The position numbers were made by a program, and so were the translations under genes. Of a stretch of DNA of 64,000 bases, positions 18,262 to 44,000 are shown one piece after another (the first letter of the stretch is position 1; each line of letters starts with the position of its first letter). This DNA is from a virus. Location of the stretch: IMG/VR virus record IMGVR_UViG_3300027759_000071, positions 1-64,000 of that record. One strand, written 5' to 3'. The notes under the pieces were generated by a model that was given only the letters and a program-made list of their open reading frames with translations, was not told the origin of the DNA and searched no databases.

Positions 18262-21200
18262 ATGTATAATAGCGATTTCAACACAAGTAGATATAATGAC
18301 CCAAACGTAACGGTAACTAAGATTACTGAAAATATAAATCGTGTCACAATATCACAAGCGGGAGTTCCTGGTCCAAAGGGCGATAAGGGTGACCCGTATG
18401 GTTCATCTGGAACGGCAGGGTCATCGGGAACATCTGGGACAAGTGGTACATCGGGCTCTGCTGGAAGTAGTGGTACAAGCGGTACAACTGGTTCACATGG
18501 CACATCTGGTTTTAGAGGCCCTGCCGGAACAAGTGGTACAACGGGTAAAGATGGTACATATTTCGGAAGTAGTGGAACTTCAGGAACAACTGGTTCGCAT
18601 GGTACATCTGGTACAAGCGGCTCATCGGGAACATCTGGCACAAGTGGTACATCGGGAACATCTGGAACAAGTGGTACATCTGCAACGGATGGTAGTGCTG
18701 GCACTGACGGTAGCGCTGGTACTGATGGTAGTGCAGGAACGGATGGAACGGCTGGAACTGATGGTTCAGCTGGTACAACAGGTTCACATGGCACATCTGG
18801 TACTAGTGGAAAAAATGGTACATCTGGCTCATCGGGAACATCTGGCACAAGTGGTTCATCTGGAAGTAGTGGTTCAACGGGAACTGCTGGTACATCTGGT
18901 ACAACCGGCTCACAAGGTACATCTGGTACATCTGGAAGTAGTGGAAGTGATGGTTCGTCTGGTACATCTGGTACTGATGGCTCTGCTGGTACATCGGGAA
19001 GTAGTGGAAGTAGCGGAAGTAGTGGTACTGATGGTAGTGCTGGAACTGATGGTAGTGCGGGAACAGATGGTTCAGCCGGTACATCGGGAAGTTCTGGAAG
19101 TAGTGGAACTGATGGTAGTGCCGGAACATCAGGAACAAGTGGTAGCAGTGGTTTAGCAGGTAAAGCTGGTTCATCGGGAACATCCGGTACGAGAGGTACA
19201 TCTGGTAGTAGTGGAGCAAGAGGACCTAATGGTTCTAATGGTTCATCTGGGTCATCGGGAACTTCAGGAAAAAATGGTACATCTGGTAGTAGTGGTAATG
19301 ATGGTACATCCGGTAGTAGTGGAAGTGATGGTTCATCTGGTACAAGCGGTACTGCTGGTTTAAGTGGAGCTGATGGTCCTATTTGGATTTTTGATTCAAC
19401 TATTGCAGCATTTAATGAACCTACCTCTGGACATTTTATAACAAATGATAATTTCTTTAGTTCTATTCTTAATGTTAGTATTTGTGAAGCAAATGCATCT
19501 AATGGAGATATGTATGGATGGTTTAACGCAATTAGCGTATATGCAGCAAATGGACATGATACATATGTAAGAATTAGTCAAGTTGGAAACACTGGTAATT
19601 TTGGTATTTATAAACTTAATACTTGCAATCGTAACCTATCAGGATTAAATCCATATTGGGATATTACATTCTATCAAGTTATTGCATCATCTGGACTTTT
19701 AGATAATGGAATTTCTTTTTCATTTTCTTGGTTTACAAATGGTATAACTGGTACATCGGGAACATCTGGCACAAGCGGCACATCTGGTGAAAGTGGTAGT
19801 GATGGCTCAGCTGGTACATCTGGAACATCTGGTACATCTGGAAGTGGTGGCTCAACTGGTTCGGCTGGTACATCGGGAACATCTGGCACAAGTGGGAGTA
19901 GTGGAAGTAATGGTTCATCGGGAACATCAGGAACATCTGGTACAAGCGGTACATCTGGAAGTGATGGTAGTACGGGGTCAGCGGGAACATCTGGAACATC
20001 TGGCACAAGAGGAACATCGGGAAGTAGTGGTAGAACTCCTATTCAAGGTATAGATTATATTAGTACATCAGGTACAACCGGTTCGGCTGGTACATCCGGA
20101 TTAGATGGGCAATTTTTAGGAAGTAGTGGTTCGTCTGGTAAAGATGGAACATCAGGAAGTTCTGGTTTTAATGGTACGGCTGGTTCATCGGGAACATCTG
20201 GTTCATCGGGTTCATCTGGTATTTCAATAGCAGGTACATCTGGTTCATCTGGTACAACGGGTTCATATGGCACATCTGGTAGTGGTGGGCAAACTGGTTC
20301 ATCGGGAACATCTGGAAGTGATGGATATGATGGAACATCTGGTACATCTGGACAAGCTGGTTCATCGGGAACATCTGGTTCATCTGGTTCATCTGGAACA
20401 TCTGGATTTGATGGAGGACCTGGTTTAAATGGTACGGCTGGAAGTAGTGGTACATCGGGAACGCAAGGTGCACAAGGAGATCCTGGTACATCGGGAACAT
20501 CTGGTACATCTGGTAGTAGTGGACTTGCTGGATTTTCAGGAACATCTGGAACATCTGGTACTGGTGGTTCGGCTGGTACATCTGGAAGTAGTGGAACATC
20601 TGGTACGACAGGTAAAGATGGACAAAATGGTACATCGGGAACATCTGGAACTGGTGGTACATCATCAACCGCTGGTAGTGCTGGTACGGCAGGTTCATCT
20701 GGCACAGGCGGTTCTGCTGGAACTGATGGAGTAGCTGGTTCATCTGGAACATCCGGTAAAAGTGGTACGGATGGTGCAGCTGGTAAAGATGGTTCGTCTG
20801 GAACATCGGGAAACACAGGATATAATGGTACTGATGGTTCAGCCGGCTCATCTGGAGTTAGTGGTACATCTGGTACAACTGGTTATAGTGGTGTTAATGG
20901 AACATCTGGAAGTAGTGGTGCTAATGGAGCAGCTGGTACATCTGGTAAAGATGGTGCTGGATTTAGTGCTATATCACCTACAACATCTGGAGCAGTATTA
21001 ACGGCAAATGGTACGGCAACAAGTGCAACAGCAAATACGGGTGTAACTATTACTGGTAACACACTTTATGCAGATGCATATTATCAAAATTCATCTCGAA
21101 CTTTAAAAACTAATATTCTTCCATTTAATAAATCGGCATTACAAATTATTGGAAATGTTAATGTTGTAGAATTTAATTATTTAACTGATTTAAAAAATAG

Positions 21201-21345
21201 ACATATTGGATTTATTGCAGAAGATACTCCAGTTGAATTGACAACTAAACATCAAAATACAATGGATGTTCCATCTACTGTGGGAGTATTGGTAAAAGCA
21301 GTTCAAGAATTAGAAAAAAGAGTTAAGGATTTAGAAAATAAGTAA
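18262..21345 (+). CDS. Collagen-like fibre with C-terminal S74 intramolecular chaperone
   Basis: This 1027-aa protein has the same anchor as the 381-aa fibre (RVTISQAGVPGPKGDKGDP). Gly-X-Y triplets fill most of residues 44-375 and about 494-900. A non-collagenous module of about 120 residues interrupts them at 375-493; it begins IWIFDSTIAAFNEPTSG. The C-terminal 110 residues match the peptidase S74 chaperone: YYQNSSRTLKTNI with the Ser nucleophile next to Arg-x-x-Lys, then RHIGFIAEDTP and a terminal coiled coil (VKAVQELEKRVKDLENK). S74 domains trimerise the fibre and then cleave themselves off. This is therefore a long trimeric fibre. Its stop codon overlaps the next start. Confidence 0.85.
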   Translation: MYNSDFNTSRYNDPNVTVTKITENINRVTISQAGVPGPKGDKGDPYGSSGTAGSSGTSGTSGTSGSAGSSGTSGTTGSHGTSGFRGPAGTSGTTGKDGTYFGSSGTSGTTGSHGTSGTSGSSGTSGTSGTSGTSGTSGTSATDGSAGTDGSAGTDGSAGTDGTAGTDGSAGTTGSHGTSGTSGKNGTSGSSGTSGTSGSSGSSGSTGTAGTSGTTGSQGTSGTSGSSGSDGSSGTSGTDGSAGTSGSSGSSGSSGTDGSAGTDGSAGTDGSAGTSGSSGSSGTDGSAGTSGTSGSSGLAGKAGSSGTSGTRGTSGSSGARGPNGSNGSSGSSGTSGKNGTSGSSGNDGTSGSSGSDGSSGTSGTAGLSGADGPIWIFDSTIAAFNEPTSGHFITNDNFFSSILNVSICEANASNGDMYGWFNAISVYAANGHDTYVRISQVGNTGNFGIYKLNTCNRNLSGLNPYWDITFYQVIASSGLLDNGISFSFSWFTNGITGTSGTSGTSGTSGESGSDGSAGTSGTSGTSGSGGSTGSAGTSGTSGTSGSSGSNGSSGTSGTSGTSGTSGSDGSTGSAGTSGTSGTRGTSGSSGRTPIQGIDYISTSGTTGSAGTSGLDGQFLGSSGSSGKDGTSGSSGFNGTAGSSGTSGSSGSSGISIAGTSGSSGTTGSYGTSGSGGQTGSSGTSGSDGYDGTSGTSGQAGSSGTSGSSGSSGTSGFDGGPGLNGTAGSSGTSGTQGAQGDPGTSGTSGTSGSSGLAGFSGTSGTSGTGGSAGTSGSSGTSGTTGKDGQNGTSGTSGTGGTSSTAGSAGTAGSSGTGGSAGTDGVAGSSGTSGKSGTDGAAGKDGSSGTSGNTGYNGTDGSAGSSGVSGTSGTTGYSGVNGTSGSSGANGAAGTSGKDGAGFSAISPTTSGAVLTANGTATSATANTGVTITGNTLYADAYYQNSSRTLKTNILPFNKSALQIIGNVNVVEFNYLTDLKNRHIGFIAEDTPVELTTKHQNTMDVPSTVGVLVKAVQELEKRVKDLENK
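18391..19370 (+). repeat. Gly-X-Y coding repeat, first block of the S74 fibre
   Basis: About 980 bp of 9-bp-period repeats encode GTS, GSS, GTD and GSA triplets. Further blocks in the same gene lie at about 19745-20035 and 20061-20965. A short KDGTYFG interruption occurs near 18548, the same type as the array at 55917-57040. Confidence 0.85.
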
Positions 21346-23303
21346 TGAGTAAAGTTAATAATTATCTAGTAACATTTACGGAAGTTAGTACTATGGGATT
21401 TACCGCCAAAGCAACTTGGCCGGTTGGGTCTGGTAGTTACGCAATGAATAGAGGTGAGGTTGATACCTATTGGTATGTAAGACAAGATGGAGCAACTTAT
21501 TCAGCATATACAAATAAGAGATATCCTCGTTATCAGGATTTAGAAGCAACTACAACTACTTCAACTACTTCAACTACTTCAACTACCACAACACCCGCCC
21601 CAAGTACTATGTTTGGTAAATCAACCAGTACATATGCTACTGTTGGATTGGCCTGTGCCGGAACAATAACTGGAACGGTATATCAAGACCCAGCATACGG
21701 AACAACGCCAACATCTGGACAGCAATTATATACTGATAGTGGTAGAACTACAACTTGGACTCCACCATCAACATCTGGATATTATCTATTTCAATATGGA
21801 AGTACCTCAAAATGGGCAGTTAGTGTAAGTAGTGGAGGTGTTATTACAGGAGTTACATCGTGTTATTACTCAGCAGTTATTGGATATGATGCATCATCTG
21901 TAACTACCGCTTGTTCTCTTACAAATTCAATAGGTGTTACTGGTAATGATACTGATTTTTGTAATTCAACAAGCTTTACATCTGCTGCAGGATTTTCAAT
22001 GGCTACTGGAAATTATTATCTATCGGATGGAACTAATTATATACAATGTAGTCACACAACTAGTACTAATTTATTCACTAGAATTAGTTTTGGGTGTACT
22101 ACATGTCCAGGTACAACCACAACAACTACAACCACAACAGCAGGTCCTTGTCAAGTATCATTGAGTCCTAGTAATGTTGATGGCGCTACGGCATGTGATA
22201 ATTGGAATAATGTAATTGATAGAACAACATATTATGCATTATATGCAGGATGTTCTGCAACCAATGGCCAACAACTTTATACTAATAGTGGATTAACAAC
22301 ATTAATTCCAAATGGTTGGTATTCTGATGGTACTAATTATTGGTTAGTTGCTGGCGGAGCTGGTACTTTAAATAGCCAAACTGCATGTGCTGGAACAACT
22401 ACAACCACTACAACCACTACAACTACAACAACTACAACAACTACAACAGCAGCTCCATTAAATTCAGTAACCTATGGGTATCACTTATCTGACCCAGACC
22501 AAGCATGTACAAATTATGAAACAAATGTACATGTGACGAAATATAATGCAGGGAATGCAGCTTCTGCAAATGGTATTACAATATACAATAACTCTAATGG
22601 TAGTGGTACACCTACGGATGGATATTATGCTAGAGGCAGTAATGTTTGGTATTCTACCAGTGGTGTATTAGGAAGTGAAGCTGCATGTTATGGAGGAACA
22701 ACCACTACAACCACTACAACTACAACAACGGAGCCGCCAACAACAACGACTACAACAACAACGACTACAACAACGGAGCCGCCAACAACAACGACTACAA
22801 CAACGGAGCCGCCAACAACAACGACTACAACAAGTACTTCAACTACAACGGAGCCGCCAACAACTACGACTACAACAACTGCAGCACCATCTGTAGTGAA
22901 TATCACAGTTAATTATGAGAGTGCAAATAATTTAGGAAACATAACATCTTTAGAAATAATAGGAAATGATGGTACGGGATACCCAGTTACCATAACATCG
23001 GGAACATTCCCATTAACTACCGTTGGGCAATCGGTAACAGCAACCACACCGCACTACGATGGTGAATATACATGGGATACTGACTATCCAAACGGTGTAT
23101 ATGCACCTGTTTTATGGGAAGTTAGACTTTACTATAATAATATTGGTGGAGCAATTGATAAAACAGTTGCAACAAGAAATGGAACAGAATCTGTTTGTTT
23201 TGGTTTAAGTTCAGTATCAGGACCGGGAGCAACTCAATTTGGATTTAGTGCACTAAACCTAGGGGACAGTATTGTAATTGAAGCTAAAGCTGGAATTTGT
23301 TAA
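21345..23303 (+). CDS. Poly-Thr-linked Cys-module surface protein
   Basis: The 652-aa product has an N-terminal domain (about 1-65), then alternating linkers and modules. The linkers are poly-Thr or Thr-rich (TTTSTTSTTSTTTTPAP, then runs of 7 to 18 Thr, then repeated TTTEPPTTT). Four modules of 65-85 residues share a plan ending in GYYSDGTNYW-like strands and a closing Cys; examples are GQQLYTDSGRTTTWTPP and GQQLYTNSGLTTLIPNGWYS. The C-terminal domain of about 140 residues is beta-rich and ends in a Cys. Thr-Pro-rich linkers of this kind are typical of extended, often O-glycosylated stalks. It overlaps the preceding fibre gene by one base (TAATG) and probably decorates or accompanies that fibre. 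No catalytic motif is visible. Confidence 0.6.
   Translation: MSKVNNYLVTFTEVSTMGFTAKATWPVGSGSYAMNRGEVDTYWYVRQDGATYSAYTNKRYPRYQDLEATTTTSTTSTTSTTTTPAPSTMFGKSTSTYATVGLACAGTITGTVYQDPAYGTTPTSGQQLYTDSGRTTTWTPPSTSGYYLFQYGSTSKWAVSVSSGGVITGVTSCYYSAVIGYDASSVTTACSLTNSIGVTGNDTDFCNSTSFTSAAGFSMATGNYYLSDGTNYIQCSHTTSTNLFTRISFGCTTCPGTTTTTTTTTAGPCQVSLSPSNVDGATACDNWNNVIDRTTYYALYAGCSATNGQQLYTNSGLTTLIPNGWYSDGTNYWLVAGGAGTLNSQTACAGTTTTTTTTTTTTTTTTTTAAPLNSVTYGYHLSDPDQACTNYETNVHVTKYNAGNAASANGITIYNNSNGSGTPTDGYYARGSNVWYSTSGVLGSEAACYGGTTTTTTTTTTTEPPTTTTTTTTTTTTEPPTTTTTTTEPPTTTTTTSTSTTTEPPTTTTTTTAAPSVVNITVNYESANNLGNITSLEIIGNDGTGYPVTITSGTFPLTTVGQSVTATTPHYDGEYTWDTDYPNGVYAPVLWEVRLYYNNIGGAIDKTVATRNGTESVCFGLSSVSGPGATQFGFSALNLGDSIVIEAKAGIC
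22698..22880 (+). repeat. Thr-rich codon repeat (ACA/ACT/ACG) with EPP spacers
   Basis: This is an array of ACN codons broken by GAGCCGCCA (Glu-Pro-Pro) units at fairly regular spacing. Shorter pure Thr tracts lie at about 22116-22140 and 22395-22448. Such triplet runs are prone to length change by slippage without loss of frame. Confidence 0.8.
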
Positions 23304-23356: not shown

Positions 23357-25576
23357 ATGGAAGAACTATTTAAATCTTGGGGAATTCAATATGACCCAAA
23401 TAATAGCATAAATGAATTAGCATCCAAACGAATTGAAGTTTGTAATTCATGCGAAAATAAAATACAAAACCAATTATCTAATAATATTTGTAATTTATGC
23501 GGATGTGGATTAAAATCAAAAGTATTCTCATCTGAAAAGGGTGAATGTCCTGCTGGAAAATGGAATGAGGTTGATAATATTCTGTTAAAAAAGAAAATAC
23601 CACAAAATATAAGATATATATGTTGCCAACCAGCAATCACTTATTATACTTGGCAAGTTGAAGTTTTAATTAATAACTTCAAAAAGATGGGAGTTAATCC
23701 AAATTACATTGATATTGTATGTGCTATTGATAATAATGTAATTCCACCAGAATGGATTAAATTAATGACTCATTATAATAGTGTTAGATTTTTCTTTTAT
23801 AATGATACTAGAAAAGATAAAAATTACCAACCATCCATTTATTTTAATCTGATGAAGCAGCATATTGTTGCAAGACCGGAAATTCAAAAGGATGTTTTAT
23901 TTTTACATGATTCGGATATTGTATTTACTAAACCAGTAAATTTTAATTCAATGATGTTTGGAGATGCTTGGTATGTAAGTAACACAAATTCTTATATAAA
24001 CTACGATTACATACAAGTTAAAGGAAACGATATTTACGAAAAAATGTGTGATATAGTTGGTATAAATAAAAATATACCAAAGTTGATGAATAACAATTCA
24101 GGCGGAGCTCAGTATATTGTTAAAAATACTACTTATAAATTTTGGGATAAAGTAGAAAATGATAGTATTGAATTGTATAAATATTTTTGTGAAGTAGAAC
24201 CGCAATATGTAAAAAAGAATGAATATGATTATCCAATTCAAAAATGGACTGCTGGCATGTGGTCTTTACTTTGGAATGCTTGGTTAGCTGGACATGAAAC
24301 TATTGTTGATACAAGAATGGATTTTGGATGGGTTACAAATTCTTACGATGATGTAAATAAATATGCAATATTACATAATTCTGGAGTTACTCCTGCTTTT
24401 AAAAATTTGTTTTTAAAAAGTAATTATATAAATAAATTACCATATTTTGAAAATATTGAAGTAGATACAAATAGGGCATCTTATTATTATTGGCAAGAAG
24501 TGTGTGAAACTGCAAATAAATCTATATTAATAGAGTCAACGCCTGAGATGAAAATTAAAAAAGATTTTGAAAAATACAAAATAACTCAATTACAATTAGA
24601 CCCTTATGGTGTATGTAACGCAAAATGTTGGTATTGTCCTGTAAAATATAAAGGAAATCCGGTAGAGGGTAGAGAAGTAATGAGTATTGAATTGATGGAA
24701 AAGATAATTAAAAATCTAATAGATGAAAGAGATAAGCCAAACGGATTAGTAGGAAAAACATTTAACGGATTATATACAGCGCATTATAACGAAATTTTAT
24801 TATATCCACATTTTGAAGAATTTTTAAAACTATGTAGAAAATATAAATTAGTTACAATGGTACTTTCAAACGGAGTACCTTTGACTCGTAGTAAAATTGA
24901 TATACTAAAAGAATATCAAGATGTACTAAGTGGAATATGCCTAAATACCCCAGCATTTGATGCAGAAACTTGGAGTAAACGAAGTGGTATTAATATAAAG
25001 CAGTTTGATACTTTAATTGATAATATAACATATGCAGTTGAACAATTACCAAATATGGTTAAAAACAAAGCATTTTCAATTCAAATAAATGGAGTGCATG
25101 ATTTATCATTTGGAGATAAAGGTGGATGGTTAGAAAAGGGAGAGCAATTTCCACATGATATAGATTTGGATGTTGAAACTGGAGAATTGGTACAACAAAA
25201 GAAAAAAGCTGAGGAATTATTTCCTGATGTAAACATATTCACTGTCCCATATCTAATTGATAGAGCAGGATTACTGGATGAAGTAATAACCAACAAACCT
25301 GCAATTGAGAGAAATTTAATGAGAAATAACGAAAGTAAGAAAGTTATTGGATGTGGTAATGGTAGAGAGGTGGGTGGTAGACCTATTGGTTGGTTACATG
25401 TAAATGCCGCTGGGGATGCTTTCCTATGTTGTAACGATTATGATTTTGATTTTAAATTTGGTAATTTTAAAACGCAAGAATTAAGAGATTTTTGGGGAAA
25501 CGAAGAACATATCCAAAAAATTAAAACCTCTTATGAAACTATATGTACGAATTGCGCATCTGCAGTTTTTGAGTAA
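23357..25576 (+). CDS. Zinc-ribbon / glycosyltransferase / radical SAM-SPASM fusion protein
   Basis: This 739-aa protein appears to join three units. Residues 25-75 form a Cys-rich zinc-ribbon-like module (C29-x2-C32, C45-x2-C48, CGC at 48-50, then CPAGKW). Residues about 85-385 resemble a GT-A type glycosyltransferase, with YYTWQVEVLINNFKK at 96-110 and a DxD metal motif in LHDSDIVF (Asp185-x-Asp187). Residues about 408-739 form a radical SAM domain with the canonical CNAKCWYC motif (C420, C424, C427) and a SPASM-like end (C666, C691-C692, C730-x2-C733). Radical SAM/SPASM enzymes commonly modify peptides, and the transferase would add a sugar. Lying among Ser/Thr-rich fibre genes, it may modify fibre proteins. 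The domains are well supported; the substrate is inference. Confidence 0.8.
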   Translation: MEELFKSWGIQYDPNNSINELASKRIEVCNSCENKIQNQLSNNICNLCGCGLKSKVFSSEKGECPAGKWNEVDNILLKKKIPQNIRYICCQPAITYYTWQVEVLINNFKKMGVNPNYIDIVCAIDNNVIPPEWIKLMTHYNSVRFFFYNDTRKDKNYQPSIYFNLMKQHIVARPEIQKDVLFLHDSDIVFTKPVNFNSMMFGDAWYVSNTNSYINYDYIQVKGNDIYEKMCDIVGINKNIPKLMNNNSGGAQYIVKNTTYKFWDKVENDSIELYKYFCEVEPQYVKKNEYDYPIQKWTAGMWSLLWNAWLAGHETIVDTRMDFGWVTNSYDDVNKYAILHNSGVTPAFKNLFLKSNYINKLPYFENIEVDTNRASYYYWQEVCETANKSILIESTPEMKIKKDFEKYKITQLQLDPYGVCNAKCWYCPVKYKGNPVEGREVMSIELMEKIIKNLIDERDKPNGLVGKTFNGLYTAHYNEILLYPHFEEFLKLCRKYKLVTMVLSNGVPLTRSKIDILKEYQDVLSGICLNTPAFDAETWSKRSGINIKQFDTLIDNITYAVEQLPNMVKNKAFSIQINGVHDLSFGDKGGWLEKGEQFPHDIDLDVETGELVQQKKKAEELFPDVNIFTVPYLIDRAGLLDEVITNKPAIERNLMRNNESKKVIGCGNGREVGGRPIGWLHVNAAGDAFLCCNDYDFDFKFGNFKTQELRDFWGNEEHIQKIKTSYETICTNCASAVFE

Positions 25577-28712: not shown

Positions 28713-29099
28713 ATGCCAAGACAAAAACCAAATATCAACATAAATAATTCAAATCTACCTGGAGATAGAAATCAATTAAAGGATTTAATTTTACAAGCAA
28801 TTACTGATACTTTTATATATTCATATTATCCAAATGACATAGCGCTGGATGGAACAGGTAACCTGTTTACTTTATATTTATATAACAAATACCTGGTAAT
28901 AGATGCTTTACAAGTAGACAACTATTCGGATTATGTAGATGTTTATTTATATGGTATTAAACAACCAAATGAAAGATATACTATAACAACAGACGGAACT
29001 GATATAACAATTGAATTTAATGTTAGTATCACTCTAGTACCAAATGAAGTTATAAAAACAGATTTTGAAATTAAAGGAAAAATAGTAGAAATAGTATAA
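28713..29099 (+). CDS. Hypothetical virion protein with beta domain related to its neighbours
   Basis: This 128-aa protein starts one base after the previous stop and its own stop overlaps the next start (TAATG). After a short polar N-terminus (KPNININNSNLPGDRN) it is nearly all beta: VDVYLYGIKQPNERYTI, then DITIEFNVSITL and FEIKGKIVEIV. The order of elements parallels the C-terminal domains of the two preceding genes. Translational coupling to the 5011-aa gene suggests it may act in the assembly or attachment of that protein. The function is not established. Confidence 0.5.
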   Translation: MPRQKPNININNSNLPGDRNQLKDLILQAITDTFIYSYYPNDIALDGTGNLFTLYLYNKYLVIDALQVDNYSDYVDVYLYGIKQPNERYTITTDGTDITIEFNVSITLVPNEVIKTDFEIKGKIVEIV

Positions 29100-32000
29100 T
29101 GGCAAGATTAATACCTCGTAAACAGATTGAAGAACAACAAAATATTAGCGCTTCGCTTAGTATTAGAGAAAACGTATTTGTTGGGCAAGATGCCATTATA
29201 AGTGGTTCTTTATTTGTATCTCAAAGTTTTTTCTTTGGAAACGATACTGGTTCTATAAATGAAATAACTGGTTCTGTATTTTTAACAGGTTCATTGGTAA
29301 TTGATGGATTATTTCAAACAACAAACCCATCTGCAATATTTTCAGTAACAGCATCTAATGCATTGGAATCATTTGATACTACCCGCTATGGTGGAGTTTT
29401 AGCTAGAGATTTTGGTGCTAACGTTCCTACTCTTTATGTATCATCTACTGATGGTGATGATACAAATGATGGTAGAACAATTCAATTCCCACTTCGTACA
29501 GTTAAAAGAGCAGCTCAATTAGCAACTCCGGGATACGATGGTAGATATGGGTTGAGTAGTTCTTCATTATTTTCTGGATATGTAATAAGAGTTCAGGCAG
29601 GAACTTATTTAGAGGATAATCCTGTGATATTACCAAAGAACGCTAGTATATGGGGTTCTGGACTTCGTATTACAAAAATAAATGCATTAAATAAAGGAGA
29701 AGACCTATTCTATGTAAACTCTGGATGTTATGTAGCTGAGGTAACAATGGGTGGTTTGAGATTATTCCCAGACCAAATAAATCCTGTAAAAGGATTTGCT
29801 ATTGCTTTCCAACCTGGTGCATTTATTACAACATCACCATATATTCAGAACTGTTCTCAAATTTCAAACCAAGAGAATTCATTTACCGAACTTTACGAAG
29901 ATATTCCACCAGGAGGTGGTGGTCTTTATGTTAATGGTGATGTGATTGATCCCGATTCTCCATTGGCTTCAATGGTATTGGATGCTTACACTCAAATTTC
30001 TCCAAACGGCGTAGGTTGTTTGGTAAATGGTAGAGGTTTCATTCAGCTGGTATCTTTCTTTAATAACTTTTCATACTACGCAATTAGAGTAAACAATGGT
30101 GGACATGCTACATTAAACAACTCAAACATTTCGTTTGGTTTGTATGGTATGTATGCATCCGGTTCTCGTCTTATTTCTGGAAGTGGTGGTAACATCGCAG
30201 CTAGAGATAGTGTAAGAGGAACTTGGAGTTGTGTTGTTGATGTTTTAAATAAAGGATTAGAAAACGGATTACCTACAATAACAAAATTAAATACGGCTGA
30301 AGGTATTCGTTTAACATCGCCAGCATTATATACACAAAGTAGAGTATCTGCAGGTACTACATTATCAACTACCGCAGCAGATGAAATATCAGCAGATTAT
30401 ACGTTAATAAGTGAAATTGTTGATAAGGGTGTAACTAACTTTCCAACTCTATTAGCAAAAAGTTCTATAAAGGGATATGGATTTGATTCTCCATATAATA
30501 TTTTAGGAGCAGAGCAAATAACATCATCTATATCAGCATCGGTAGGAGATTTAACACAAATAAGTGCATCCTACGCAGCTATTTTAAGTATATTAGCAAA
30601 TGGTACTGGTTCATTTAATTTTAAATCTAATACAAGTGCTAGTAGACAAATTGGTACTGATGTAATTGAACAAATAGGAAATATTGCAACAAACTATACT
30701 GCATCGGTTAGCTCATCATTTGGTACGGTAATTAATATTATTACAAAAGGTGTTTCTGTTAAACCAACTTATATAGCAAACACAAGCGCTAGTATAAAGG
30801 GTGGAAGTGTTGAACAAACAATGTTGGGTGTAACATCATCTTTAGCAACAATAAATTCGGTAAGTGCAAGTTTTAGTATTGTTTATAATATTTTAGCAAA
30901 TGGTACTGGTAGTAATATTTTACAAATACCGGCTAATCATCAAAAATCGTTTGTAATAACTAATAACAATAGTTCTTCATTTAATTTTGAAGGAATTGGT
31001 AGTAATCCTACATTAACTTTATTTAGAGGAGAAACTTACAAATTCAATATAGATGCTATCGAAGATTTTGGTGGTATTGAATATCCATTTTGGATTAGAA
31101 CGGAGCAATTAGAAGGTATTACTGAAAAATATGATTATAATATTGGTATGGTAAATAATGGAGATAGTAGAGGTACAATAACCTTTACAGTACCATATAA
31201 TGCACCAAATAGATTATATTATGTATCTCAAAATAAAAGTTCAATGGGTGGTGTGATTGATATAGTAAACTCATCTACAACTCCATTCGACTTAATTAAA
31301 AATACATTAACATATCCAGCTACAATACAAAGTGGTTCGATAGCGAAAACAAACATTGATGTTGTAACAGCATACGAAATATTAGTAAATAACATAACAT
31401 TTATTCAAGATGAGGTAATACAATATGTATCATCATCTTGGAGTGGATTTTCATATCCAGAAGAAACTTGTAAAAGAGATGTTGCATATATTGTAAGTGG
31501 TTCGGCAAAAGACCTTTTATTTGGTGGAAATGAAGAAAGTATTAGAAATGGTTTATTTTATTACCAATACCCATCTCAGGCAACTACTACACAATTAGGA
31601 CCTACACTAACTGCTATGAAACATGCAGCCGAAGTTTCATTAAATTTAATTAGAGGTAAAGTATATGTAGAACCAATAAATGATGTAGTTGATGTTTGGA
31701 GTACAATCAGAGATAATAAAACATTTGTACAAAATGAAGTTATAACTTATTTATCATCATCTTGGTCTAATTTTTATTATAACGAAGAAAAATGTAGACG
31801 TGATACTGGTTACATATTAGATGCGGTAGCAACTGATATAAAATATGGTGGTAATGAAAGAAGTATAACTGCTGGTGAGTATTATTATCAATATCCATCT
31901 TTAGCAATTGTAAGAGGTGATGGTGATGGTGTTGGGCAATTAGGACAAACATCAGATGGTATTAGATATGCTAGTGGGTTAGTTGATAGTTTATTAAAAC

Positions 32001-35000
32001 GAAAAACATTTACAGCACCATCAGCATCAACTCTATCAGCATATAATAACTTAAAAAATAATAAAGAATTAATTCAAAACGAAACAATTCAATTTATCAA
32101 TGTTGCGTTTCCAAATTTAAAATATAATCAAGCAACTTGTAAAAGAGATGTTGGTTATATTATTGATAATGTAGCAACGGATTTACTATATGGTGGAATT
32201 GAAAGAGGTGTAACTGCTGGTAGATATTATTATGATTATCCATCAATAGCAACAAAAACACAAAAAACATCAACTATTGCTGGTGTTAAGTATGCAAAAA
32301 TAATTGGAGATACGATTGTTCAAAATATTATATTAGATACACCACGTATTGTTTATAATGATGAGAAGAATTTTAGAGCATCATCTTTAACAAACGTAAC
32401 ATCTTCATTTAGTGGTTCGGCAACTCAACAAACTTCTATTGGTAATACATTCTCAATTATAGAAGGAATTGTAGCAAGAGGATTGAGCTCAATTAAATCT
32501 TTGTTAGCACAAAATACTGGATTAACTTGGAATAAATATAATCCAATAAGTGTAAGTAGTGGTTCTCAAATAACTTCATCTTATACAACACCAAACGAAG
32601 TAACTACAATTGGTAGAAATTTTGATGTTGTAAATACTATTATTGGTGGTGGTTTAGTAGCAGAACCTTTATTCACATCATCGCATGCCGGATTAACTAA
32701 AGTAACTACTGGAACACAAACAACTGCATCATTTGCGGTAAGTGGTTCGGCAACTGCATCACTCTCATCATCATTCGCTTTAATTACTGGAATTATAACT
32801 GATGGAGTAAAATCATTTACACCAACTACGGCAACGTATAACCCAGCAGATGGTAATTTTGTAATGACTATTCCAAGTCATACATTAAAAACATCTAATG
32901 GAATTTATTTAAAACCTGAATCATTTGTATTCACTTGTGATATGGATGGTAATAGAACAGAACATAAATTACCATCAGTAGGTCAACCGGCTCATACTAA
33001 TAGATTAAAAATTCAATCGGTAACAAATAATACTGTAACTGTAAATGTTGGTGCTTCTGGTCCTGATGTATATTTCAATCCTACTAACGCAACATATAAT
33101 CCAGCAACTGGAGATTTTGTAATAACGGTAGCAAGTCATAGTTTAAGTGTTGGTGAGGGTATAGTACTTTCTACTGGTTCATTCGCATTTACTTGTGATA
33201 TGGATGGTAATCAATCTACTAAATCTTATCCTAGATTTGGTATTGACCCATATTCAGTTCGTTCAATTCCAATTACTGCTGTAACTGCAACTACAATGAC
33301 AGTTAATGTTGGTGTATCGGCAGCTAATAAATACTTTACACCTACATCGGCTAGTTATAACGCACTTACAGGCGATATGTCTGTAACCGTTGGACAGCAC
33401 GGATTGGGAGTTGGTAGAAGTGTTATTTTAGTAAGTTCATCAATAGCATTTACTTGTGACCAAGACAATAACGCAACAACACATTCTTATCCAAGAAGTG
33501 GTAGTGACCCATATGCTGGTAAATCAATAGAGATAACATCAGTTGGGTTTACTGAACATACCGTAACTAATGCACCATATAATGCTGAAACTGGTGATGT
33601 TACTTTAACAATAGCATCTCACTCATTTAGTAATGGAGATTATATTAAACTTTCAGACAACTCTTTAACTTACACTTGTATATTAGATGGTAATTTAGTT
33701 TCAAAATCGTATCCAAGAGTTGGTTATGATTACCCAAGCGGAAGATGGTTAAGTATATCTGGGGTAACTACATCATCATTTGATATTAATATAGGAGCAT
33801 CTTCATATACAAGCGCACATACATTTGTAACAGCAAGTATTAATGGATTACAAAGACAAAATGGTATCTTTACAATTAATGTAGGAGATGCAGGAAGTGC
33901 TTCTGGCTCTATACACACATTTGTATCGGCATCAGCAAACGCTATACAACACTTACCACAATCAGTTCATACTTTTGTATCAGCATCCTCTGGGGCAGTT
34001 AAACACTTACCACAAGCAGCACATACATTTGTTAGAACAAATCAAAATTCGGTAAGTACTGTACCTGTGTTAGTACAAAATACTTATGGTTTAATTAAAG
34101 TTACTAATACGGTATTTACAGCAAGTTCTGCAGCAACAACTGCGGAAAGTGCAAGTATTAGTTCATCATTCGCTTTAGTTGAAAGAGTATTAAAAAATGG
34201 AACATCTATTATACCAGCATTAACATCTTCGTTAAATGCAAATATAAAAGTAACAAATGCATCACAATATATTTCCGCATCTTATTCGGCAAGTGCAAGT
34301 GATGTAAACTTTATATCATCATCAATATCAATAGTAACAAAGATAATTGAAGGTGGTGAGTTTTCAGCACCGGCTTTCCAAACATATACAAATAGAATAA
34401 CATCATCTAATAGTGTAGCAGCTTATGAAATTCTTAAAAATAATATTGGATTTATTGTTTCGGAATCAATCGCATACTTAAGTTCGTCTTGGTCAACTGC
34501 ATCTTACGATGAAGATAAATGCAGACGTGATTTAGGATTTATACTTAGTGGTTCTGCAGAAGATTTAATATGGAACGCAAATTCAGCATCAATATTTAAC
34601 GGATTATTCTATTGGGAATTCCCATCACAAGCGCAAGGAGCACAGCTTCAACAAACATTAGATGGTATAAACTACGCATCACGTTTAGCACAAAAAGTAA
34701 TATTAAATACTCCATTTGTTACGGCATCTTCGGATATAACAAAAGCAAAAGTATTATTAAGAAACAACACTCAATTTATTAAAGATGAAACAATAGCATA
34801 TTTATCATCTTCTTGGATTGGGCATGATTATAACGAAACAACTTGTAAAAGAGATGTTGGTCATATATTAGATGCAGCAATTACTGATATGGTGTATGGT
34901 GGTAACGAAAGAAGTAGAATAGCATCATATTATTACTTTACATATCCATCGGCAGCAACAGGTTCACAATTAATGCAAACTGTTGATGGTATTAACTATG

Positions 35001-38000
35001 CAAATAGATTAGCACAAAAGACAGTATTAAATTCAACATTTATACAAGCTGAAAGCAATAAAGTAAATGCAAGTAATTTAATAAGATTGAATAGAGATTT
35101 GATTGCAAATGAAGTAGTTGAATATGTTAGTTCTTCTTGGAGTGATGCACCTTACGATGATATCAAATGTAGAAGGGATGTTAAGTATATTTTAGATGCG
35201 GTTAGAACTGACTTAGTATATGGTGGTAATGAACGAAGTAAATTTGCAGGAGAATACTATTATGAATATCCATCTAAAGCAATCGTAGCTGGTGTACCAT
35301 CAGCAACTGCTCAATTAGATAGTACTATAACTGGTATTGATTATGGTAGTGGGTTGGTACAAAATATAATTAAAAATAATATATTAAGTGTACCATCCGT
35401 AGCAATAACAAACGCTGCAGCTTTAGTAAGAAAAAATAGATTATTCTTACAACAAAATACTGTTGATTATGTAAATGATGTATATCCTAATTTAGATTAT
35501 ATTGAAAGTAAGTGTTATAGAGATACTGGATTTATTGTAGATGCAGTAATTACTGATTTAGTATATGGTGGAAATGAAAGAAGTATAACTGCCGGAAGAT
35601 TCTATTATTTGTATCCATCTCAAGCTACTGGAGTTCAATCTGAAGAAACAATTGATTCCCTAAACTTCACAAAAGGTTTAGCAAAATTAGTAGCAATAGG
35701 TGGCAAATCAATAGAGGATGGTTTTGATATTGTAGCAAACGTAATCGAAAGTGGAAGTAATTCAGCACCTTCAGTGGTATTAAATACTGCAGCGGGAATT
35801 AAAGCAACTACTGCTCAACAAATTACATCATCAATATCAGTAGCAACAAATGATAAATCTATTATATCATCTTCATTTGGTAACATACTTAATATCGTAT
35901 CAAACGGAACTGGTTCAATTCCAACAACAATTGTTAAAAATACAAATAAAGGTGTAAATGTTTTAGGTGGTACACAAATAACATCATCAACTGCTCCAAA
36001 TACTTCAGAAAAGGTAAAAGTAACTACTGGATTTGATACTGTAATTGATATTGTAGCAAATGGCACTGGTTCAATTCCAACTATTGTAACAAATGTAAAT
36101 TCTTTAATTAAAAGAACTACTACAAATAGTTATATAACAACAGCATCAATATCATCTACATATCTTACAGCTTCAAATAATAGTTTTGATATTGTTTTGG
36201 ATATTGTTGAAAATGGTACTGGTTCTTTACCTACATTAGTAAAAAATACTGATTCATTAGTAAAGATAACAAATACAAATCAATTTACATCTTCTGTAAT
36301 TATATCATCTTCATTAGCAAGAAATATATCTGGAAGTTTTGATAAAATTATAAACATATTAGAAAATGGTACTGGTTCTTTACCTACTATTGTAACAAAT
36401 GTAAATAATATTAAAGTAACCGATGCTACTCAATATTTCGGAGTAAATGCGGCAACACAAACTGAAGCTAACGCGATATCCGCATCTATTTCTATTGTAA
36501 CAAATATAATAGCAAATGGTACGGGTTCTTTACCAACCGTAACTTTATATACATCATCAATATCATCTTCAAATGTATTAGCAGCTTATGCTATACTAAA
36601 AAGTAACTTAGATTTTATAGTATCGGAAAGTATTGCATATTTAAGTTCATCTTGGTCAACTGCATCTTATGATGAAAGTAAGTGTAGACGTGATTTGAAA
36701 TTCATAATAAGTGGTTCAGCTGAAGATTTAATATTCAATGCAAATTCAGCATCGGTATTCAATGGTGTGTTTTATTATCAGTTCCCATCACAAGCGCAAG
36801 GAGCACAATTAAATCAAACTTTAGATGGTATTAAATACGCATCACGTTTAGCACAAAAATTAGTATTAAATACTTTATTTGTAACTCAATCGGCGCAAAT
36901 TAAAGATGCATATACTCTTTTGGTTAATAACAAAGAGTTTATTAAGGATGAAGTAATACCTTATATAAGTTCATCTTGGAGTACACATCAATACGTTGAA
37001 TCAACTTGTAAGAGAGATATAGTACATATTATAGATGCAGTTTCTACGGATTTATTATATGGTGGAAATGAGAGAAGTATAAATGCTGGAGTATTCTATT
37101 ATAGATATCCATCTGAAGCAACTGGTTCACAAATACAGGAGACTGTAACAGGTATTGAATATGCTAGAAACCTTGCATTCAAAATTCTTAGAGGAAATAC
37201 ATTCGTAAAAGTATCACAAAATAAATTACAAGCAAAAGAATTAATTTATAACAATAGAGCATTTATACAAAATGAAGTTATAAGTTATATTTCGGCAAGT
37301 TGGAGTACAGCATCTTATAACGAAACAACTTGTAAGAGAGATGTAGGACATATCTTAGATGCGGTAACAACTGATATAGTTTATGGTGGTAATGAGAGAA
37401 GTGTAAATGCTGGAAAATTCTATTATGAGTATCCATCACAAGCTACAACATCTCAATTAGGACCAACATTAAGTGGAATCAAATACGCTAAAGATTTAAC
37501 CGATAGTGTGTTAAAGAATTCCACATTTGCATCAGCATCTAATTCTAATGTTACTGCATACGAATTGATATTCAATAATAAGGCATTTATACAAAATGAA
37601 ACTATTGCTTATCTATCTTCTTCTTGGAGTGCATTCTCTTATAACCAAACTACTTGTAAAAGAGATATTGGTTATATATTAGATGCGGTAGCAACTGATA
37701 TTCTTTATGGTGGTAACGAAAGAGTAGCTAAAGCTGGTGAGTATTATTACTTATATCCTTCATCGGCATCAGTTGCTAACGATGGTGATACTGGTGGACA
37801 ATTAAATCAAACTTTAGATGGTATAAAATACGCTAAAGGAATTACTGAAAAAATTGTAGCAAATTTATTATTACAATCACCAACAACATCTGAATTAACT
37901 GGATTTAATTTATTACTTGATAATAAGAAGTTCATACAAAGTGAATCAATTGCTTACCTATCTTCTTCTTGGAGTGGTGGTGATGGATTCTATTATAACG

Positions 38001-41000
38001 AAACAACTTGTAAGAGAGATATTGGGCATATTATAGATGCAGTTAGAACTGATTTAGTATATGGTGGAAATGAAAGAAGTTCAAAAGCTGGAGAATATTA
38101 TTATCTATATCCATCAGCAGCAATCCTAACTGGTTCTGTTTCACCAACTGTAACAACACAAAAAGGACCTACACTTGATGGAATAAAATATGTAGCTGGT
38201 ACTGCAGAAAATATAATAGCAAATACACAATTAATATCACCAAATGGATTTGCAACAGCATCTGTTAATTTATTAAGACAGAATAAATTATTTATACAAA
38301 ACGAAACTGTACAATACATAGATGCTTTCTTCCCTAATTTAGTTTATTTAAGAGAAACATGTAGACGTGATGTTGGATATATTTTAGATGCAGTTATAAC
38401 CGATACTTTCTATGGTGGAAATCAAAGAAGTGTTATAGCTGGACAATATTATTATTTATATCCATCATTAGCAACAAAAAGTACGCAAGTTATAGAAACT
38501 GTTGCTGGTGTTGATTATGCAAAAGCATTAGCTAAAGCAATAGTTCAAAATATAAAATTAAATTCTCCAACACTAACTACAAATACTGATGGAAATATTA
38601 AGGTAACTAATACTACACAATATACATCATCATTATCAGCATCAATAATTGAAGTAAATCAAATTAGTTCATCATTTGGGTTAGTAACTGGAATTATAAC
38701 TGATGGAGTAAAATCATTTACACCAACTACGGCAACATACAATCCAGCGAATGGAGAATTTGTAATTACTATACCAAGTCATACATTGACAAAGTATAAT
38801 AGCATTTACATTAGACCTGAATCATTTGTATTCACTTGTGATATGGATGGTAATAGAACGGAACATAAGTTACCTTCAATTGGACAATACGCATATTCTA
38901 ACAAATTACAAATACAATCAGTAACAACTAATACGATAACTGTAAATGTTGGAGCATCAGGACCTAATGTAGAGTTCACACCTACTAACGCAACTTACAA
39001 TCCAGCTACTGGAGATTTTGTAATGACAGTAGGAACACATAGTTTAAGTATTGGTGAGGGAATTGTAATAACAACGGGTTCAATCGCATTTACTTGTGAT
39101 ATGGATAACAATCAATCGGTTAAATCATATCCTAGATTTGGAATAGACCCATACGCTGGTCGTTCTATGGTGATAACTAACACTACACCAACTACATTGA
39201 CGGTTAGTGTTGGCGCATCTGCGGCTAACAAATACTTTACACCATCTGCAGCTAATTATAACGCACTTACAGGCGATATGTCTGTAACTGTTGGACAGCA
39301 TGGCTTGGGTGTTGGTAGAAGTGTTATTTTAGCAACGGGTTCAATCGCATTTACTTGTGACCAAGATGGTAACACAACAACACATAGTTATCCTAGAGTT
39401 GGTAGTGACCCATATGTTGGAAAATCAATTGAGATAAAATCAGTTGGATTCACTCAACACACAGTAACTAATGCACCATATAACGCTGAAACTGGCGATG
39501 TTACTTTAACAATAGCATCTCACGGATTTAGTAATGGAGATTATATTAAACTTTCCGATAACTCATTAACTTACAATTGTGTATTGGATGATAATGTAGT
39601 TTCAAAATCTTACCCTAGGGCTGGATATGATTATCCAAGCGGAAGATGGTTAAGTATATCTGGTGTAACTACAAATACGTTTAACATCAATATAGGTGCA
39701 TCATCATATACAAACTCACATACATTTGTGACAGCAAGTATTAATGGAGTACAAAGACAGAATGGTATCTTCACAATCAATGTAGGGGATGCTGGGAGTG
39801 CTTCTGGTTCAATACATACATTTGTATCAGCATCATCAAACGCTGTAAAATACCTGCCACAATCAGTTCATACGTTTGTATCAGCATCAGCTGGGGCAAT
39901 TAAACATTTACCTCAAGCAACTCATACATTTGTTAGAACTAATAAAAATTCAATAAGTACATTACCTGTATTAGTTGAAAATGGTAATGGTTTAATTAAA
40001 GTAACAAATACAACTCAATACTCATCATCAATATCAGCAAGTAGAGCTGAATTAGATATTATCACATCATCATTTAAGCATGTAGCTGATATTATTGAAA
40101 ATGGTGTTGCATTTGTACCGGATTCATTGGCAAGAAACTATAATTACGGATTTGAATTATCTACACCAACTTTATTACATATAAGTTCTAAAGAGCAAAC
40201 AATTGGTACGGGTTCATATAACTTATCAACTCAAATTACAAACGTAAGTTCTTCTTATGGTACTGTTGTAAACGTTGTTAAAAACGGATTGAGTGTATTA
40301 CCTACATTAGTAACAAATACATCATCATCGTTAAAAGTAACAAACGCAAATCCTGTAAGACAAGCAACATCAGCATCATCTTTTGATACTAATAAGATTG
40401 CAAGTGGATTTGATTTGATATTAAGTGTAATTGAAAATGGAACATCGGTTCTACCAACAATTATATCAAATACATCAGCAAGTATTAAGGTAACTAACAC
40501 ACCACAATTAATAAGTGGAAGTGCGGCAGGAAGATTGCAGGGTAAATTAATATCATCATCTTTATCTTTGGTAATTGATGTGTTATTAAATAATGGTACA
40601 AGCTCAATTACATATAGACCATCCGCATATCCAATAGCAAATACAAATGCAAAAATAAATTCAGCATATAATCTATTAGTAAGTAACTCTAAATTTATAG
40701 TTGATGAAACTATTGCTTATATGAGTTCATCTTGGAGTGGATTTGCATATACACAAAGTAAATGTGAAAGAGATTTGACAGGAATCCTTAGTGGTTCTGC
40801 ATTTGACCTTTTATATGGTGGTAATTCAGCATCTTTGTTTAATGGTAAGTTCTATTTTGATTTCCCATCTCAAGCAACTGGTTCACAATTAGACCAAACT
40901 ATAACTGCATTAAAGTACGCAAGTGGATTAGCAGAAAAGGTTGTATTGAATACTGTATTTACACATATATCAGCATCACAATTGGTATCATCATCGGCAT

Positions 41001-44000
41001 CTTACAATTCATTGAGAGAAAACAAAGGATTTATACAAAGTGAATCAATTGCATATCTATCAGCAAGTTGGGCTAAGCATGATTATAATGAAACTACTTG
41101 TAAGAGAGATATTGGATACATTATAGATGCAGTAGCAACTGATTTGTTGTATGGTGGTAACGAAAGAAGTGTGATAGCAGGAAGATATTATTATGATTAT
41201 CCATCTCAAGCTACAAACGCACAATTAGAACCAACATTGACTGGTGTAAGATATGCAAAAGGAACGGCTATGAACGTAGTTGTTAATAAGCAGATATTTA
41301 CAGCATCTTTGGAAGTTCAATACGCATACGATTTAATAAAAGCTAACAAACTATTCATACAAAGTGAAAGTGTTGCATATGTAAACGTTAAATACCCTAA
41401 CTTAGATTATAGTGAAAGTAAATGTTATAGAGATTTAGGATATATCATTGATGGTGTAGCAACTGATTTACTTTATGGTGGAAATGAGAGAAGTAGAGAT
41501 AATGCAGATTACTATTATCAGTTCCCATCTCAAGCAAATGGGTTTGGTTCGCAAGTAATTCAAACAACGGATGCAATTAAGTACGCAGCTAGAATAACAA
41601 CGGCATCTATTAGTAGTACATTAATAGCAGCACCTTCTATCGTACTTAATACTTTAGAAAACATTAAAGTAACTAACGCTACACAACTTGTAACATCATC
41701 ATTGTTTGGAACTGTGGCTGAAGCTAACGCAATATCGGCATCAATTTCTATTGTAGCAAATATAGTAAGAAATGGTACGGGTTCATTACCAACTTTAATT
41801 CCATATACAACTCAATCGGTTGATACTAATGTAATATACTCATATAATTTATTAAAAGCAAATATTGGATTTATTGTATCGGAATCAATAGCATATTTAA
41901 GTTCATCTTGGTCAACAGCATCTTATAATGAAGAAAGTTGTTCTCGTGACTTACGATTTATATTGAGTGGTTCGGCTGAGGATTTATTGTACAACGCAAA
42001 TTCGGCATCTATATTTAATGGTGTATTCTATTATCAGTTCCCATCAGCAGCAACAAGTTCACAATTGAATCAAACTCTTGATGGAATAAACTACGCAAGT
42101 AGATTAGCACAAAATATAGTACAAAACGTAACTTATGTAACTGCATCAGCAATCGTATCAGCATCATACGCATTGATTAGAAAAAATAGAGAGTTTATAC
42201 AAAATGAAACTATTGCGTATCTATCTTCTTCTTGGAGTACAGCATCTTATGATGAAGTAACTTGTAAAAGAGATGTTGGTCATATTATAGATGCGGTTTC
42301 TACGGATTTACTTTATGGTGGAAACGAAAGAAGTACAAACGCTGGGGTGTTCTATTACTTATATCCATCACAAGCGCAAGGTTCACAATTACAACCAACA
42401 TTAGCAGGTGTTAATTACGCAGGACAACTTTCTAAGAATGTTGCGGCATCATTAACATTTGTGACAGCATCTCAAATAGTATCAGCATCGGTTAATTTGT
42501 TAAGAAAGAATAGAGAGTTTATACAAAATGAAACCCTAGCTTACTTAACTGCTAGCTGGAGTACATTTGAGTATGATAAAGATAAGTGTAAGAGAGATGT
42601 TGGCTATATATTAGATGGTGTAACAACTGATTTATTATATGGTGGAAATGAAAGAGGTGTATTCAGCGGAGAGTTCTATTACAAATATCCATCTAAGGCA
42701 ATTATTGAAGGAGATGGTGATGGTGTAGGACAATTAGGGCAAACAATTGATGGTATAAACTACGCAAGTAGAATAGCACAAAAGATTGTAAAAAATACAT
42801 TGTTTGTAACAGCATCAGTAGAGGCATCCGCATCGTTTGATTTATTAAGAAAGAATAAATCATTTGTGGCAGCTGAAACTATCGCTTATGTATCTTCATC
42901 TTGGAGTAGTGTATATTATAACGAAGCAACTTGTAAAAGAGATGTAGGATATCTAATAGATGCAGCAGCAACGGATGTATTGTATGGTGGACAAGAAAGA
43001 ACTGTGATAGCAGGGCAGTATTATTACTTATATCCTTCTAACGCAATTAATTCAGGCGTACCATCAACTCTAAATCAATTAGACCCAACTCTTACTGGTA
43101 TCAGATATGCTGGAAAGGTATCCAAAAAGATAATAACCAATCCAACTTATTTAGTACCATCTGCATCATTATTACTAACAGCAAAATTGTTGACAGATAA
43201 TAAACAATTGATACAAAAAGAAACTATAACATTCTTAAGTTCCTCTTGGAGTAATTTAAAATATAATGAAGTAAGTTGTTCTAGAGATTTAGGATTTATT
43301 ATAGATGCAATCAGAACGGATTTAGTTTATGGTGGTAATGAGAGAAGTATTGAAGCAGGTTCATACTACTACAAATTCCCATCAGTAGCAATTGTGGAAA
43401 GTTACGCTGATAATACTGGACAGAAAAAACAAACGGTAGATGGTATTAACTTCGCAAGAGGAATTTCTGAAAAGGTAGTAGCAAATACTTTATTAACTTA
43501 TTTAGCACCGGCAACTAAAAGAAGACAAGCAGCTGAAAGGTTAAAATCTGGTAAGGATGAATTGAAACAAAGAGCAATTGGATATACAAATGGAGCATTT
43601 CCATATTTAGTATATAATGAGGCAAGTTGTTCACGTGATACTGGATTTATTGTAGATGCGTGTGTAACTGATTTATTATATGGTGGAAATGAGAGAGGAA
43701 TTGCAGCAGCATCTTCTTACTACGATGGCCAGTACGGAAGTGCAATAGCTGTGACTAGAGACCAATTATTAGAAACATTGGAAACAAATCGTTATCTAAG
43801 AACTAGAGCAGAGTTTATAGCAGCTGGTGCACCATTGGAATCATTTGGTTCTTTGATTGTGGCAACTGGTATTGACTACTCTTATAATGGTAGTGGTGTA
43901 ACATTTAAAGCACTTCCTCCAAATCAGGGTGGTAGTGGTGTTGCAAATCCATTATTTGAAATTACGGAATTGGGTGGTGGTAGAATCTTCTTCACATCCG

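Follow-up and report, generated by a model that had tools for sequence, protein, structure and literature searches.

In the mycobacteriophages Che8, Corndog and Myrna, phage-encoded glycosyltransferases (GTs) are reported to attach glycans to the C-termini of capsid and tail-tube subunits (Freeman 2023, as described in PMC12619734 and PMC12363180). In pelagimyophages, GTs of the host-recognition clusters have been guessed to alter host glycans, and radical SAM cassettes are also gained there (PMC7029224). Radical SAM enzymes that act on sugars are known from other settings: BtrN, a twitch enzyme, is a 2-deoxy-scyllo-inosamine dehydrogenase, and DesII, a free-standing enzyme in the synthesis of antibiotic sugars, acts on a nucleotide amino-sugar. 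Here we describe a phage gene in which a GT is fused to a radical SAM enzyme resembling these, and which probably serves to glycosylate long threonine tracts of virion proteins.

The gene lies in a 64,000-nucleotide stretch of viral DNA (the window), part of an 82,226-base record whose Pfam matches include a T4-type capsid gene (Gp23); judging from the translations, putative tail-sheath, tube and baseplate-like genes stand further along. The ORF occupies positions 23357-25576 of the + strand and encodes 739 residues from an ATG start in one uninterrupted frame. Pfam places Radical_SAM at residues 417-566 (6.5e-9, above the cut-off) and SPASM at 678-733 (5.9e-8), and PHROGs adds phrog_13558 at residues 12-69 (1.1e-8) and phrog_4417 at 86-384 (6.7e-64), both labelled "unknown function". 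The strength of the phrog_4417 match, together with viral-contig relatives of the GT domain and of the radical SAM domain, each encoded at over 200 sites, puts the three modules far beyond chance. Third-position GC is 0.17 in all three modules, as in the flanking genes, which, with the frame open throughout, speaks against an assembly or frame artefact. Modelled in full by AlphaFold2 on an alignment of 62 sequences, the protein reached a mean pLDDT of 90.4, with zinc-ribbon residues 41-74 below 50. The three-module fusion within a structural gene cluster, as an earlier note on this DNA had described it, is thus borne out by the ORF, the Pfam and PHROG matches and the neighbouring virion genes. 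On the same strand, at 29099-44134 and 45144-57638, the window also holds repetitive, tail fibre-like ORFs of 5011 and 4164 residues.

The zinc ribbon comprises residues 1-84 (23357..23608, + strand). Its Cys residues C29, C32, C45 and C48, and the CPAGKW motif (64-69), were recognized in the earlier note, and across five aligned modules the four Cys are invariant, as are C64, P65, K68 and W69. This is the CxxC..CxxC..CPxxKW pattern of the small phrog_13558/DUF6171 domain: the zinc-ribbon homologue of locus L007 matches Pfam DUF6171 (1.1e-9) and aligns with fusion residues 13-69 at 3.9e-7. As a stand-alone gene, the zinc ribbon adjoins a radical SAM gene in L004, L006-L008, L011 and many more loci.

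The GT domain (residues 85-390; 23609..24526, + strand) gave a pLDDT of 95.9 when modelled alone. Foldseek matched this model to GT6 alpha-1,3-galactosyltransferase, GT24 UGGT, GT8 LARGE1, glycogenin, the Skp1 galactosyltransferase and GT34, nearly all of them retaining GT-A enzymes, at E-values of about 1e-6 and TM-scores of about 0.5. The GT-A fold predicted for residues 85-385 in the earlier note is therefore supported, and so is the DxD motif it had seen in LHDSDIVF (D185-S186-D187; 23909..23917, + strand): both Asp residues are present in 51/51 relatives. H340-x2-G343 and K354 (24374..24418, + strand), which by analogy with GT8 enzymes are candidate metal or phosphate ligands of a retaining GT-A site, are equally conserved, in Bacteroidota and Bacillota phages alike. 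The whole set would fit a metal-dependent, retaining GT-A active site. The domain shares fold, DxD, His and Lys pattern with the retaining GT-A families, yet it is not a member of GT6, GT8, GT24 or GT34, as the TM-scores are modest and searches of Pfam and NCBIfam GT models and of PDB sequences gave no match. As to the suggested likeness to peptidyl Ser/hydroxyproline GTs (HPAT/SGT), Pfam gave no match, and no such enzyme is among the best 50 fold matches in the PDB. In sequence the domain belongs to phrog_4417, annotated in VPE25 and PMBT8 as "prophage pi2 protein 34"; elsewhere this family is a hypothetical protein only, whereas here it is joined to a zinc ribbon and a radical SAM enzyme. 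In the phiFL2A record (NC_013643.1), the GT frame at 23415-24232 bears no gene annotation.

The remainder of the protein (residues 401-739; 24557..25573, + strand) is a radical SAM enzyme with a twitch, or truncated SPASM, extension. Superfamily membership follows from the Pfam match, fold matches to the partial TIM barrel and the conserved Cys residues: C420, C424 and C427 of the CxxxCxxC motif in CNAKCWYC (420-427; 24614..24637, + strand) and the auxiliary-cluster residues C666, C691/C692, C730 and C733 (25352..25555, + strand), eight in all, are kept in 43/43 relatives. The motif had been correctly noted before; the SPASM-like C-terminus assigned with it is better described as a BtrN-like twitch. 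PF13186 does match, but a full SPASM domain has seven Cys and two auxiliary clusters (CX9-15GX4C - CX2CX5CX3C - C), whereas this C-terminus has C666...G-x4-C691 and C730-x2-C733 and stops six residues on with no further Cys, leaving the single four-Cys auxiliary cluster (C..C..CxxC) of twitch enzymes. Against solved structures, the sequence profile has BtrN as its sole match, in the core half as well as the C-terminal one (9.4e-10). By Foldseek, the radical SAM part resembles DesII, SuiB, BtrN, SkfB and BlsE, and DesII is the top match of the whole-protein model, through this part. Unlike BtrN, with which it shares both Cys motifs, and unlike DesII, the enzyme is fused to a GT, and it sits in virion-protein operons.

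Among the viral-contig relatives found, the complete triple fusion occurs in the window only. GT-radical SAM fusions that lack the zinc ribbon are found in L002, L003, L025-L029, L039 and L040; the two are adjacent separate genes in L030-L037, L041, L043-L046 and L048; zinc-ribbon and radical SAM genes are neighbours in L004, L006, L007 and most of L070-L101; and in many loci the phrog_4417 GT stands without either. We regard this alternation between fused and split modules as good evidence for one pathway. Other phrog_4417 GTs are joined to one or two methyltransferases or to a GT2-like second GT (L128, L126, L111, L131, L156), as would be expected if a first sugar were further decorated. A GT4/methyltransferase fusion lies downstream in L002, and L003 has a weakly GT9-like gene, a PfkB sugar kinase and what reads as a nucleotidyltransferase-like gene. 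Virion glyco-modification by a self-contained enzyme, as the earlier note suggested it, is partly supported: the Thr-tract data below point to Thr-rich virion proteins as the likely substrate, and "self-contained" is too strong, the relatives being separate genes accompanied by extra GTs, methyltransferases and nucleotide-sugar enzymes. A parallel cassette is seen in L006, L008, L011 and L070-L101, where a Thr-tract fibre is followed by a DUF6171-type zinc ribbon, a member of the same radical SAM family and a Skp1-type GlcNAc transferase (PF11397), an unrelated GT that replaces phrog_4417; several of these cassettes add 2OG oxygenases, which calls to mind the glycosylation of Skp1 hydroxyproline in eukaryotes.

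The gene whose end lies some 50 nt upstream of the fusion (21345..23303, + strand) encodes a fibre of 652 residues, 163 of them Thr, the proposed substrate. Its Thr tracts (21543-21608, 22113-22142, 22395-22457 and 22698-22892, + strand) separate small domains and reach 18 Thr. They mix the codons ACA, ACT, ACC and ACG, so that slippage on a single codon is unlikely as their sole origin. We counted as a Thr run any stretch of 15 residues that holds 9 or more Thr, a cut chosen after seeing this fibre and applied in the same way to the background; one ORF in the 82-kb record has such a run, the one directly upstream of the fusion. A collagen-like fibre of Gly-Ser/Thr repeats before it (18262..21345, + strand; Collagen Pfam matches) might conceivably be a further substrate.

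The same arrangement recurs among the relatives. In 75/97 loci the GT is directly preceded by a gene with a Thr run, against 87/1542 other genes of those loci with such a run; after thinning to below 88% identity the counts are 32/45 loci against 13/311 genes (p=8e-25), and a Thr run lies within four genes of the GT in 35/43 thinned loci. We also compared 20 sequenced phage records, leaving out one second, near-identical record. In 16 of them a Thr run, in many cases the C-terminus of the major tail or capsid protein, ends no more than 120 nt upstream of the GT start; R9.1, LP65 and 521B are exceptions with shorter or displaced Thr-rich stretches, and in one record it is the major tail protein, encoded a few genes downstream of the GT, that has the Thr tail. 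The hosts of phages with GT-linked Thr runs (Enterococcus, Lactobacillus, Staphylococcus, Lactococcus, Arcanobacterium and Chryseobacterium) span three phyla, and the carriers of the runs are unrelated: the major tail protein (MTP) in phiFL2A and 1_EfsPF36, the major capsid protein (MCP) in 4995_1 and large fibres in viral contigs. Lactococcus phage 1706 orf13, annotated as "major structural protein", ends in VTTTTTTTTTTHHD and adjoins the GT gene orf14. The homologues therefore lie beside tail, capsid and fibre genes with Thr runs, as the virion reading had anticipated, rather than far from structural genes. A search of a collection of open papers for a link between poly-Thr and phage glycosylation returned nothing relevant.

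In SA2, RQ1, TPWB06 and VPE25, the Thr runs are on small ORFs that overlap or abut the tail or capsid gene at its 3' end. The poly-Thr stretch there is in another frame (VPE25, L320 2725-2880; SA2, L189 3658-3927; RQ1, L183 3638-3949; TPWB06, L188 3720-3926), and these out-of-frame ORFs suggest a programmed frameshift that would yield a minor, Thr-tailed form of the MCP or MTP.

Joint presence and absence was followed with tail-protein cores, stripped of their tails, as queries, the relatives being fetched blind to both tail and GT. In the first family, counted with the one relative that the Staphylococcus SA2 protein retrieved, a tail of the type TTTTTTTTT comes with the GT in 11/11 cases, and the 35 members without a tail are all without the GT; one short contig of this set (L341) has a borderline tail and no GT. 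In the phiFL2A family, 3 members have both and 11 have neither. Pooled, the 61 relatives comprise 14 with both, 46 with neither, 1 borderline and none with a GT but no Thr tail; 11 of the 14 double positives are near-identical, so the independent events are few (we count at least three). Well-supported branches in the tree of phiFL-type cores force at least two changes, with L379, which has both, as the sister of L380, which has neither.

These data bear on what the GT acts upon. A place in the fibre cluster could reflect a shared role in host recognition, with the GT and radical SAM enzyme modifying host surface glycans for seroconversion or superinfection exclusion. This is what has been guessed in print for the GTs of pelagimyophages (PMC7029224), but it leaves unexplained the adjacency to Thr runs, the joint presence and absence with the Thr tail and the adjacency to MCP and MTP genes in siphophages, and we consider it very improbable. 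We attach just as little credence to mere linkage, in which Thr runs would be plain flexible linkers and the GT a hitch-hiking neighbour that does not act on them. Many Thr-run ORFs do occur without a phrog_4417 GT directly downstream: in an independent sample of poly-Thr DNA, in which 25 of the 80 loci listed are without a Thr-run ORF, the GT directly follows the Thr run in 4 of 34 readable cases among the matches listed, and Thr runs are commoner than the GT. Against this, a GT without a Thr tail occurs in 0/61 tail-protein relatives, the pair changes more than once, and the association holds across tail and capsid proteins that are unrelated to one another, in phages of three host phyla. 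Glycosylation of the Thr tracts by the GT accommodates these observations, and an action on Thr-rich peptides may reach beyond phages. A scan of genome contigs gave 7 loci; in Pedobacter frigoris and Mucilaginibacter lappiensis (L316 1138-5704; L318 3995-6792) the domain is joined to a GT7C-like domain within a RiPP-like cluster that has LanC-like genes and what reads as a C39-peptidase exporter. A leader-like protein next to it in Pedobacter has a Thr-rich C-terminus of TTTE repeats. These clusters hint that Thr-rich peptides could be GT substrates there as well; the homologues from bacterial assemblies (L316-L318) have a lower Thr density and no true Thr run.

The target of the radical SAM domain is a separate matter. 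The GT might glycosylate the tracts while the radical SAM domain acts on the peptide by Thr oxidation, epimerisation or crosslinking, and the peptide-acting SPASM/twitch enzymes SuiB, SkfB, anSME and EpeE are indeed among its fold matches. We examined what surrounds 37 stand-alone radical SAM genes, a non-redundant set. In 16/37 there is a Thr tract within four genes upstream, as a peptide-acting enzyme would have it, but every one of these also has a sugar gene, a further 15 have a sugar gene but lack a Thr tract, and 6 have neither. A GT or nucleotide-sugar gene lies within three genes in 31/37, against 0/65 anchors elsewhere in the same loci, a background that is small because the loci are centred on the radical SAM gene. 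The sugar partners vary, from three GT families (phrog_4417, GlcNAc-type PF11397 and GT2) to a GDP-mannose dehydratase. The common factor of the radical SAM enzyme is therefore sugar, not threonine. Moreover, the sequence profile picks a sugar-alcohol dehydrogenase, BtrN, in both halves. An action on the peptide thus seems unlikely to us, and a RiPP-type maturase with a full SPASM domain is likewise less likely, since the Cys pattern is truncated and sugar genes are the more strictly linked neighbours. Sugar linkage and the resemblance to BtrN and DesII make editing of a glycan or sugar donor the likelier reaction, and the radical SAM domain probably edits the glycan. In L052, L056 and their relatives, a member of the same radical SAM family follows a protein of 760-762 residues whose end reads ..LACAGGSC.., and sugar genes are absent from the vicinity; this protein is possibly a different substrate.

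Taken together, we interpret the fusion as a virion O-glycosylation enzyme for Thr tracts with radical SAM sugar editing, a reading that we consider probable on the strength of sequence comparisons. We envision that the retaining GT-A domain would add a sugar, probably alpha-linked, to Thr residues of the long tracts, here those of the fibre encoded directly upstream; a tract peptide such as TTTTTTTTTTTTAAP is a candidate acceptor. The BtrN-like domain would then oxidise or otherwise edit the attached sugar, or its donor, and the zinc ribbon would probably dock the enzyme onto its substrate or a partner. The product could be a stiff, protease-resistant, mucin-like stalk between the fibre domains and, in relatives, a glycan coat over the tail tube or capsid. 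We infer the attachment to Thr, which sugar is used and how it is linked, the order of the steps, the radical SAM reaction, the zinc-ribbon role and the physical function. In the concern with capsid and tail-tube proteins this system would resemble that of the mycobacteriophages. No homology links the two, however: Che8 gp108-110 gave no significant score with the GT profile and no match with the radical SAM profile, and the Che8 MCP and MTP have no Thr run, so that glycosylation of Thr tracts would differ from the mycobacteriophage system.

More tentatively, poly-Thr, phrog_4417 and exchangeable editors (radical SAM/twitch enzymes, methyltransferases, second GTs) could together constitute a widespread, so far undescribed "mucin-like" glycosylation system on the tail tubes, capsids and fibres of Bacillota, Actinomycetota and Bacteroidota phages, including a radical SAM enzyme that would edit a glycan attached to protein. 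Virion glycans bear on the recognition of phages by antibodies, as one account describes for the mycobacteriophage case (PMC12363180). The proposal offers a testable function for a large phage family of "unknown" proteins and a reason for the long Thr runs in phage proteins, and some of the phages concerned are laboratory phages (Lactococcus 1706, Enterococcus VPE25 and phiFL2A). If it is true, many tail-cluster GTs now guessed to alter host LPS would instead have the virion as their target, and radical SAM chemistry would extend to protein glycans.
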